Of a stretch of 64,000 nt of DNA, positions 1,698-43,903 are shown one piece after another (position 1 is the stretch's first letter; each line of letters opens with the position of its first letter). Origin of the DNA: Clostridia bacterium (GTDB lineage Bacteria; Bacillota; Clostridia; TANB77; CAG-508); the NCBI GenBank assembly GCA_022799315.1, contig JAAWOE010000001.1, forward strand, positions 1 to 64,000, in the 5' to 3' direction. Made by a program: the position numbers and the translations under genes. The notes below the pieces were generated by a model, which was not told the DNA's origin, searched no databases, and saw nothing but the letters and a program-made list of their open reading frames with translations.

Positions 1698-2051
1698 TCA
1701 ATAATCTTCAACATCGAAATAAATGGAAGATGTCACATATGGCTTGTCTTCAATCATATAAACCCAATGAACTTCTACATTATCACGAATTTTCGTGAAT
1801 TGATATTCAATATGGAATATACTGTAGATATTTTTTGGATTATAATAATCAAACGCACGAACAATTGGAATTTTCGTTGATACGACATAACATCCATTTA
1901 CTACGAGCCAAATATTGTATATCCAACCAGTTTCCAATATAGGTATTGAAAAACCAGTTGTATCACTAATTCCTGTTGAAGAAGATGTCATTGGTCTGAC
2001 AAAATTTAATTTCCGAGTGTAAAGGTCTCTGAAAAATAAATAATTATTCAT
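1698..2051 (-). CDS. Hypothetical protein (117 aa; MNNYLFFRDLYTRKLNFVRP...)
   Basis: Minus ORF; internal ATG at 2051 has SD aaggagggg, preferred over the longer track start at 2138. Confidence 0.6.
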   Translation of the reverse strand: MNNYLFFRDLYTRKLNFVRPMTSSSTGISDTTGFSIPILETGWIYNIWLVVNGCYVVSTKIPIVRAFDYYNPKNIYSIFHIEYQFTKIRDNVEVHWVYMIEDKPYVTSSIYFDVEDY

Positions 2052-2360
2052 ACAAACCCCTCCTTGTAATTTACGACTTACAAGTAAAACTAATACTATT
2101 ATATATACTAAAGTATATTTGCCAACAAAATACAGCAAAATTTTACAAGATTTTACAAATTACATATTTATAAAAAATATGAATAAAAATCAAAATTTGT
2201 ATTGCATTTATTTATAAAATATAGTAATATTTTTTAGGGTGTAAGAAAAATGAGAAATTTTGTAGAAAAAACACAATTTATCATTACATTAAATAGCAAA
2301 GCAAATTTGCTAGTTTTTGTGTTTGCTACAATTATTTCTATTATATATGGTATAAATTTA

Positions 2361-40913: not shown

Positions 40914-41486
40914 GTGCAAAAAAGAATAAAAAAAATATTGTTTATTACAATAATAATTGCAATTATATTGATTTTACTTCTTGGCGTTTTTAAAGTGCAA
41001 AACATTGTATTAAGAAAAATTTACCCAATAAAATATTCAGAATATGTTTATAAATATGCAGAAGAATATGAAGTGGATCCATTACTCATATTCGCAATTA
41101 TTAAAGCAGAAAGTAACTTTAATCCAAACGTTGTTTCTTCAAGCAATGCAATAGGACTTATGCAACTTATGGATACAACAGCAGAAGAACTTGCAAGAAA
41201 ACTTGATGTAACATTTATGAAAAATGCATCTTTATATAATCCGGATTTAAATATAAGATTAGGAACAAAATACTTTTCAGATTTATTAAAACAATATAAT
41301 GGAAACAAATTACTTGCACTAACAGCTTATAATGCAGGGAAAGGTACTTTAAAAAGATGGATAGAACAAGGAACAATTAAAGAAGATGGAACAGACATTG
41401 AAAATATTCCTTATAAAGAAACAAACAATTATGTAAGGAAAATTGTAAGAGACTATAAAATATACCAAGAACTTTACAAAAAGTAA
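40914..41486 (+). CDS. Lytic transglycosylase (SLT domain), membrane-anchored
   Basis: IIKAESNFNPNVVSSSNAIGLMQLM, ALTAYNAGKGTLKRWI; GTG start. Confidence 0.88.
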   Translation: MQKRIKKILFITIIIAIILILLLGVFKVQNIVLRKIYPIKYSEYVYKYAEEYEVDPLLIFAIIKAESNFNPNVVSSSNAIGLMQLMDTTAEELARKLDVTFMKNASLYNPDLNIRLGTKYFSDLLKQYNGNKLLALTAYNAGKGTLKRWIEQGTIKEDGTDIENIPYKETNNYVRKIVRDYKIYQELYKK

Positions 41487-41518: not shown

Positions 41519-41547
41519 TTGACATATGACGAAGCATATGTTATCAT
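41519..41547 (+). promoter_or_regulatory. Promoter of the type III antitoxin RNA
   Basis: ttgaca-17 nt-tatcat, overlapping a catatg...catatg dyad. Confidence 0.7.
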
Positions 41548-41553
41548 ACTATT

Positions 41554-41656
41554 AACAAATAGGTTTCGCAACCCTACTTGCGAAGAACAAATGCGTAGGT
41601 GAACAAATAGGTTTCGCAACCCTACTTGCGAAGAACAAATGCGTAGGTGAACAAAT
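41554..41656 (+). ncRNA. Predicted type III antitoxin RNA (CptI/ToxI-like): two exact 48-nt tandem repeats plus partial third
   Basis: Unit aacaaataggtttcgcaaccctacttgcgaagaacaaatgcgtaggtg; stem TTCGCAA/TTGCGAA with loop CCTAC complementary to downstream GTAGG (H-type pseudoknot). Confidence 0.85.
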
Positions 41657-41662
41657 TGAATA

Positions 41663-41702
41663 GGGGGTTACTAATAGGGGATATTAGTGACTCCTTATTT
41701 TT
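41663..41702 (+). terminator. Terminator between antitoxin repeats and toxin gene
   Basis: ggggttactaataggggatattagtgactccttatttttt. Confidence 0.8.
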
Positions 41703-41724
41703 TATGCAAGTAGGAGGTATAATA

Positions 41725-42210
41725 ATGATTAAAATTGAAGAAGGAAAATTTTATTTTTTAAAAGATTCATTTTTTGAAAAAATGAAAGATAGTAATTTGG
41801 CTCAAAATAAGGATAATGGAAATAAGAGACCATGTTATTATTGCTTTAGAGATAAGAAGGAAGATGAATTAATTTGGTTTATGCCAATTAGCTCTAAAGT
41901 TAATAAGTACAAGAAAATTTATGAGGAAAAACTAAAGAAATATAAAAGAGTGGATACATTAGTATTTGGAAAATTAAATGGCGAAGAAAGAGTCTTTTTA
42001 ATTCAGAATATGTTTCCAACAATAGAAAAGTATATTGAAGAAATATATGTAAGAAAGAGTGAAGATGTAACCATTACATATACACTGGAGAGACAAATAA
42101 AGGAAAAAGCGAATCTTGTATTGGAAATAGCTAAAAAGTGTAAGAAAGTAATATTTCCAGATATAATGAAAATAAAAGAAACATTACTAAAAGAATTAGA
42201 AATAGAATAG
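41725..42210 (+). CDS. Type III toxin-antitoxin system endoribonuclease toxin, CptN/ToxN-like
   Basis: MIKIEEGKFYFLKDSFFEKM...NGNKRPCYYCFRDKK...WFMPISSKVNKYKKIYEEKL...VFLIQNMFP; preceded by tandem-repeat RNA and terminator. SD taggagg before 41725. Confidence 0.85.
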   Translation: MIKIEEGKFYFLKDSFFEKMKDSNLAQNKDNGNKRPCYYCFRDKKEDELIWFMPISSKVNKYKKIYEEKLKKYKRVDTLVFGKLNGEERVFLIQNMFPTIEKYIEEIYVRKSEDVTITYTLERQIKEKANLVLEIAKKCKKVIFPDIMKIKETLLKELEIE

Positions 42211-42264
42211 GTTTACAAACTAAAAGTTATGATATATAATAACAAAAACAAAGGAGGGAATATT

Positions 42265-43266
42265 ATGGCAGTATTAGTTACAGGTGGAGCAGGATTTATT
42301 GGAAGTCACACAGTAGTAGAATTATTAAATGAAGGAAAAGAAGTTGTTATTATAGATAACTTTTCAAATAGTAAACCAGAGGTTTTAGACGCAATTAGAA
42401 AAATTACAGGTAAAGATTTTAAGTTTTATGAAATTGATTATTTAGACAGACCAAGACTAGAAAAGGTATTTGAAGAAAATGAAATTGAAGCAGTTTTAAA
42501 TTTTGCAGGATTTAAAGCAGTAGGAGAATCGGTTGCAAAACCAATTGAATATTATACTAATAACATTTCAGGAGCATTAGTATTACTAGATACTATGAGA
42601 AAATATGGTATAAAAACATTTGTATTTAGTTCATCTGCAACAGTATATGGAGAACCTGAAAGGATTCCAATTACAGAAGATTGTAAAACAGGTGGAACAA
42701 CAAATCCATATGGAACTTCAAAATTATTTATAGAACAAATTTTAAAAGATATTTATACATCAGATCCAACTTGGAATATATGTATATTAAGATACTTTAA
42801 CCCAGTAGGGGCACATGAAAGCGGTTTGATTGGAGAAGAACCACAAGGAATACCAAATAATTTAATGCCATATGTAGCAAGAGTTGCTGCAGGAACACTA
42901 GAAGAATTATCTGTTTTTGGAAACGATTATGATACACCTGATGGAACAGGAGTAAGAGATTATATTCATGTAGTAGATTTAGCAAAAGGACATATAAAAG
43001 CATTACAAAAATTAGAAAAAGAGCAAAAAGGATTATATATCTATAACTTAGGTACAGGAAATGGATATAGCGTATTAGACATGGTAAAGGCATTTGAAAA
43101 AGCAACGAAAAAAGAAGTAAAATACAAAATTGTACAAAGAAGAGCAGGTGATATTGCAACATGTTATGCAGACCCTAAAAAGGCAAAAGAAGAACTAGGC
43201 TGGGAAGCAAACCTAGGAATTGATGAAATGTGCAGAGATAGTTGGAATTATATAAATCGTAAATAA
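42265..43266 (+). CDS. galE: UDP-glucose 4-epimerase
   Basis: [32 protein letters not shown]. Confidence 0.95.
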
Positions 43267-43327: not shown

Positions 43328-43624
43328 TTACTTCATAGAATCTTCCCAAGTTTTGGAAATATACGATAAAGGCTCTGCTATTGAATATTTTTTGCCAGTT
43401 TTCATAGTGACAATACTGGCAGCATCGCCAACAACAGAAATTTTACATCTTTCACTCTCTGGGAAAAATTTTTCCCAATTTTCACCTTTATTAAGGTCAT
43501 GAGTCTCTACTGATGAGATATCATAAGGATTTAAAGATACTGTACCAGTTAGTATGAGCTGGTTTTTTTCTGAATCACTATTGTAAGTATGTAACTCAAT
43601 AGGTTTAAAAGGTTTCATTTTCAT
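43328..43624 (-). CDS. Hypothetical protein (about 98 aa, atypical composition)
   Basis: Own promoter with TTATGTAAAA spacer motif (ttgact-17-tataat on minus at about 43733-43761), SD aaagga, terminator. Confidence 0.6.
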   Translation of the reverse strand: MKMKPFKPIELHTYNSDSEKNQLILTGTVSLNPYDISSVETHDLNKGENWEKFFPESERCKISVVGDAASIVTMKTGKKYSIAEPLSYISKTWEDSMK

Positions 43625-43903
43625 TGACATATCCTTTCATATTGAATCGATAGTTAAATTGTATGAATTAATCCCCCTGACCATAGGTTCATACAAAAGG
43701 TTACGCGGGCTGTTAAAAACAGCTATGCAATTATTATAAACTGTTTTACATAATTAGTCAATCAAATTATTAAGAATACCACATAACCGATGTGATAAAT
43801 TACAAAATTCACGAAAAATTCACAAAAACCGCCATGGAACTGGTTTACATATTGTGAAAAAATTGGTATAATGGAAGATATGGAAAATATAAGGAGAAAT
43901 TAA

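Follow-up and report, generated by a model that had tools for sequence, protein, structure and literature searches.

A CptIN-family toxin–antitoxin locus with pseudoknotted repeats in a Clostridia genome, flanked by lytic transglycosylase and galE genes

The window analyzed here is a stretch of 64,000 nucleotides from a Clostridia bacterium (assembly GCA_022799315.1, contig JAAWOE010000001.1, positions 1 to 64,000; the genome is called G000 below). On its plus strand a promoter, a repeat array, a terminator hairpin, a ribosome-binding site and a toxin open reading frame follow each other in this order (Table 1). The locus lies where a preliminary description, made from the sequence alone, had placed it. 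It had called the promoter, two exact 48-nt repeats with the start of a third, and an intrinsic terminator, and had noted that the architecture matches that of known type III loci. The promoter call is confirmed by the consensus matches. The repeats were recovered exactly by TRF, which gives the array at 41554–41656 a score of 206 with 100% matches and 2.1 copies, the best array in the window. The terminator folds with −23.1 kcal/mol (z = −7.3), and repeats, terminator and toxin come in the CptIN order. A consensus terminator scan did not detect the hairpin at 41658–41700. The preliminary description had further held that the open reading frame caller chose a wrong start at GTG 41647. We agree, since this frame crosses the terminator, homology to CptN begins at residue 7–8 of the frame starting with ATG 41725, and a ribosome-binding site is found 7 nt before this ATG.

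Table 1. Features of the locus and of its borders (positions in the window)
Feature	Position	Strand	Evidence or remarks
Lytic transglycosylase gene (SLT domain), left border of insertion site	40914..41486	+	Pfam SLT, 1.7e-36
Antitoxin–toxin operon promoter, sigma-70-type, TTGACA-17-TATCAT	41519..41547	+	11/12 consensus matches
Inverted repeat ACATATG-ACGAAG-CATATGT inside promoter	41522..41541	.	Sequence; same arms but a different loop in G008
Repeat 1 (48 nt)	41554..41601	+	S1 41565-41571/41578-41584, L1 41572, S2 41573-41577/41595-41599, L2 41585-41594
Repeat 2 (48 nt), identical to repeat 1	41602..41649	+	TRF; covariation; S1 41613-41619/41626-41632, L1 41620, S2 41621-41625/41643-41647, L2 41633-41642
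Start of third repeat, AACAAAT (7 nt)	41650..41656	+	TRF, 2.1 copies
Rho-independent terminator between antitoxin and toxin	41658..41705	+	19-bp stem (41658-41700) plus T tract
Ribosome-binding site AGGAGG	41712..41717	+	Sequence; 7 nt before ATG 41725
cptN, 161-aa predicted endoribonuclease toxin	41725..42210	+	NF047359; 4RMO; fold; dN/dS
galE promoter TTTACA-17-TATAAT	42212..42240	+	Retained directly behind toxin stop codon
galE-like NAD-dependent epimerase gene, right border of insertion site	42265..43266	+	Pfam Epimerase, 7.3e-59

The −10 element of the operon promoter is preceded by TG, and the promoter is conserved in the sister genome G008 (see below). As the −10 element ends 7 nt upstream of the array, transcription probably begins at or near the first base of repeat 1. 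The inverted repeat within the promoter is possibly an operator. Downstream of galE, a 100-aa open reading frame on the opposite strand (43328–43630) has no Pfam or NCBIfam match.

The toxin matches the NCBIfam CptIN equivalog NF047359 (E = 8.6e-55) with 184.7 bits, the family cut-off being 90. By sequence, its best match among solved structures is CptN of Eubacterium rectale (4RMO, E = 2.3e-25). An AlphaFold model built from 13 relatives reached a pLDDT of 88.9, and the first fold match of this model is again 4RMO (TM 0.82/0.85), followed by MazF and AbiQ. The model thus has the CptN fold, in which helices accompany a twisted antiparallel sheet. In CptN_Er the conserved ribonuclease site is Ser-Ser-Arg, and Asp81, Ser85 and Tyr104 hold the scissile adenine (PMC4627078). 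Residues S56-S57-K58 of the toxin align with the former, the exchange of Arg for Lys being conservative, and are predicted to form the catalytic site; among the 13 relatives P54 and S56 never vary, and K58 hardly does. Of the adenine cage the tyrosine is kept (Y108), Asp81 falls into a gap and Ser85 is replaced by Arg. The exact cleavage position is therefore uncertain. No CptN was found in the GenBank phage records, the plasmid search returned six distant matches, and IMG/VR contains four relatives of the toxin, the best being 53% identical.

The locus is inserted between the SLT gene and galE. The SLT gene is present in 21 of the 23 genomes of the genus, and in 12 other relatives the gap between it and galE measures 16–120 nt. 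In G000 and in G008, a metagenome-assembled genome of an uncultured Clostridium (contig CANAZY010000006.1, loci L013/L028/L047), the same gap is filled by CptIN. At the empty sites which we read, the galE promoter resembles the promoter behind the toxin of the window. In two relatives the gap harbors unrelated small open reading frames of 141 and 155 aa (L034:986–1411 and L035:851–1318, both on the minus strand), which match neither Pfam nor NCBIfam. Thus, this spot tolerates insertions.

The comparison with G008 also bears on whether the locus is still active. Damaged copies of CptN or ToxN are frequent both in this genome and across the genus (a frameshift in C45, broken copies in G016, G018 and G019, fragments in C10 and C11), and the locus could likewise be a decaying remnant in which the toxin is inactive and the array a passenger. 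However, the open reading frame is intact and its catalytic residues are conserved. The toxins of G000 and G008 are 81% identical with a dN/dS of 0.15 (0.07 for the flanking genes), and while their synonymous sites differ by 45% (pS = 0.455), the two repeats are identical at 95 of 96 bases. In G008 the terminator has changed its sequence and kept its stem (z = −5.8). These observations indicate that both the RNA and the toxin are under selection, and we regard decay as very unlikely. The locus is complete, intact and under selection and most likely works like the described CptIN members.

Each repeat contains a stem S1 (TTCGCAA/TTGCGAA), a loop L1 of 1 nt (C), a second stem S2 (CCTAC/GTAGG) and an A-rich loop L2 of 10 nt (GAACAAATGC). 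A plain secondary-structure fold recovers S1 and cannot show S2; a single repeat unit alone has a folding z-score of only −1.1. As plain folding is blind to the pseudoknot we used covariation in its place. CptN loci found in the genus and on named genome contigs served as the source, and repeat units were cut by the L2 sequence motif and at least 50% identity to the unit of the window, not by pairing. The resulting 55 distinct units align without any gap. Standard pairs occupy 90% of the S1/S2 cells, compared with 78% in column shuffles, which take no account of sequence relatedness, and 35–45% when the partners are slid by 1–3 columns, a control that keeps relatedness. Cells changed on both sides number 97 against 34 in the shuffles. 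S2 is paired in 97% of the cells and has such changes at all five pairs, its variants including CCTAC/GTAGG, CCTAT/ATAGG, CCTGT/ACAGG and CCTGC/GCAGG. S1 has them at five of seven pairs, and its outermost pair (columns 12/31) is not conserved across the family. In the more distant loci L012 and L003 two repeats of one array differ by compensating changes in S2. Energy folding finds S1 only; given the compensatory changes in both stems, we consider the pseudoknot well supported by comparison. In three further loci (L052, L098 and L119) the CptI-like repeats measure about 63 nt, the pseudoknot loop being extended by a AACTTTGAAATA-type insert that lies between S1 and the AAATG portion of L2.

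In the collections searched the exact 48-nt repeat occurs in the genome of the window and in G008 only. Neither the exact repeat nor a generalised repeat pattern is present in the viral contigs, which were searched for phage-borne decoy antitoxins. CptI antitoxins tested so far gave no cross-neutralisation among toxins of 35–44% identity (PMC4627078). With a repeat limited to two genomes, a separate specificity is therefore likely, and the proposal of the preliminary description that the repeat may represent a new one is plausible.

Since array and terminator lie in the 5′ leader of a ribonuclease gene, and since a terminator upstream of an open reading frame resembles an attenuator, one could think of a cis-acting leader, an attenuator or a riboswitch-like element, which controls the gene instead of an antitoxin which acts on the protein. 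Rfam matches no family either way: nothing relevant was found in the window at the gathering threshold, nor in the three CptIN loci of the genome in a permissive search. Annotation relying on Rfam will thus miss this RNA. Tandem repeats with phase-conserved pseudoknots are, however, the architecture of the CptI antitoxin, which has been solved together with its toxin (PMC4627078), and the fold showed no anti-terminator pairing. Moreover, L015 (about 2000–2130, minus strand) and L025 (about 1400–1450) have upstream of CptN the exact 45-nt repeat of the experimentally validated CptI_Er, a sequence which we obtained by reverse-complementing the CptI-WT primer given in PMC4627078. In our view a mere regulatory leader is extremely improbable. 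The identity of the repeat in L015 and L025 with that of E. rectale also suggests horizontal transfer of that locus.

A ToxIN member, which would form a triangle of three toxins and three RNAs, shares its fold with AbiQ as does our toxin and could explain the weak match to the ToxN Pfam (E = 0.0031, 18.1 bits), but this match is below the cut-off of 25 bits whereas the CptIN cut-off is far exceeded, and a unit of 48 nt instead of 34–36 nt with a 1-nt L1 and a 10-nt A-rich L2 is that of CptI, so that we give this assignment hardly any credence. Attenuating leader, decayed remnant and ToxIN membership are hence all rejected on the evidence discussed with each.

We are highly confident that the locus is a functional type III toxin–antitoxin system of the CptIN family, for which toxicity and neutralisation are predicted. 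It adds a new member to a known family and is not a new kind of system; PADLOC gave no match for it. The gene order, the toxin family and the covariation uphold the preliminary description, which had proposed a type III locus with a pseudoknotted repeat RNA. The two stems which it had combined into an H-type pseudoknot are present in each repeat and both are supported by covariation, and the profile search of 41725–42210 which it had suggested returned the CptIN equivalog. Its toxin label "CptN/ToxN-like" stands for CptN and falls for ToxN. The NF047359 match, 4RMO as best solved match, the sub-threshold ToxN score and the L1 and L2 of CptI type together narrow the assignment to CptIN.

We suggest that the system operates in the following steps. 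The promoter would drive synthesis of a short RNA of two-and-a-bit 48-nt repeats. Most transcripts would end at the terminator, and a minority would read through and yield CptN, which has the MazF/Kid-like fold and is presumably an endoribonuclease. It could then cleave the precursor RNA once per repeat after ..GUGA. By analogy to A45 of CptI_Er (PMC4627078), the start of the third repeat would supply the downstream side of the last cleavage site, between ..GUGA and ACAAAU... Each freed repeat might fold as an H-type pseudoknot, sit between toxin molecules and block their active sites; the geometry of CptIN_Er would suggest a ring built from two toxin and two RNA molecules. Should the supply of RNA stop upon loss of the locus, and perhaps also during some phage infections, free CptN would cut cellular RNA and growth would halt. 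The benefit for the host is most likely self-maintenance of the locus and possibly phage defence. In E. coli, CptIN_Er stabilised plasmids and, with more than 200 coliphages, conferred no resistance on this host (PMC4627078). Given the latter result phage defence is unsupported for the CptIN family and should not be assumed.

The locus is not alone in its genome, which has unusually many type III loci. The G000 assembly of 1.57 Mb in 47 contigs, with an estimated contamination of 7.8%, contains three CptN loci (the one of the window, one fused to a methyltransferase in C17 and one frameshifted in C45) as well as two intact ToxN loci and two ToxN fragments (C10 and C11); its type III toxin–antitoxin contigs are C12, C16, C17, C45, C10 and C11. 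All five non-fragment loci have a repeat array of their own, found by TRF in four and by eye as three diverged copies in L009. CptN above the cut-off is present in 9 of the 23 genomes of the genus and ToxN in 16 of them; among 398 other genomes sampled across the phylum the respective counts are 4 and 15. The genus is thus strongly enriched in both toxins relative to the phylum. A broken toxin together with a surviving terminator and one or more surviving repeats is seen at four damaged CptIN loci (C45 of G000, G016/L021, G018/L025 and G019/L180), the damage in L003, L021, L025 and L180 being a frameshift, an internal deletion or a stop in the toxin gene. L020 is an exception among the decayed loci, as part of its toxin is left while the array is missing. 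Loss of the toxin first is the order expected if free toxin is harmful. Tentatively, the locus could be seen as one of several type III pairs that coexist without interfering with each other, each having a pseudoknot sequence of its own and ours an undescribed specificity, in a changing and perhaps anti-phage repertoire whose loci are gained in the genus, fused to neighbours and lost toxin-first; we would rather doubt than assert this wider picture.

Several fusions were seen along the way. In L002:886–1992 (minus strand; C17, about 82827–83940) the frame of CptN, the second one of this genome, continues into the start codon of an O-methyltransferase, giving an open reading frame of 368 aa. 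The fusion sits between typA/bipA and the methyltransferase, which retains the RBS-like sequence AAGGAG, and CptN is absent at the methyltransferase in all 18 other genomes of the genus having that gene. In two genomes of the genus, clearly different ToxN toxins (L137:907–2061, minus strand; L139:1492–2568, plus strand) each continue in frame into one and the same conserved domain, which measures about 190 aa and has no Pfam match. G020 has an open frame similar in length to these ToxN fusions.

The window thus contributes a well-supported CptIN locus whose repeat sequence, in the collections searched, recurs only in G008. The locus itself is of modest interest, and specialists may be drawn more to the genus-wide pattern, the fusions and the toxin-first decay. 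Through the 55 distinct units with their toxins, the CptI pseudoknot is supported by covariation in more than the one crystallised case, and the matched toxin–antitoxin pairs of graded divergence are a resource for experimental specificity mapping.

Among the known systems CptIN_Er (4RMO) has in common with our locus the gene order, the toxin fold and the S-S-[K/R] site, and also the H-type pseudoknot, a 1-nt L1, an A-rich L2 with AAAUG (9 nt in CptI_Er; PMC4627078) and about two repeats. The toxin of the window is, however, only about 35% identical to CptN_Er and does not conserve the equivalents of Asp81 and Ser85. Its unit of 48 nt, not 45, has a longer 5′ tail, other S1 and S2 sequences and a C instead of a U at the kink position of L2, and the locus is inserted between SLT and galE. 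The CptIN of G008 shares the insertion site, the palindromic promoter, the repeats but for one base and much of the toxin sequence, whereas its terminator sequence and toxin have diverged and its toxin–galE spacer is longer. Within the same genome, the CptIN in C17 (L002) likewise has a CptN above the cut-off, two exact repeats, here of 46 nt, and a terminator, but differs in a toxin of 46% identity, in its stem sequences and in the methyltransferase fusion. ToxIN and AbiQ finally share the type III logic, the toxin fold and the locus layout, but differ in their shorter repeats, their heterohexameric complex and a ToxN family whose Pfam cut-off our toxin does not reach.
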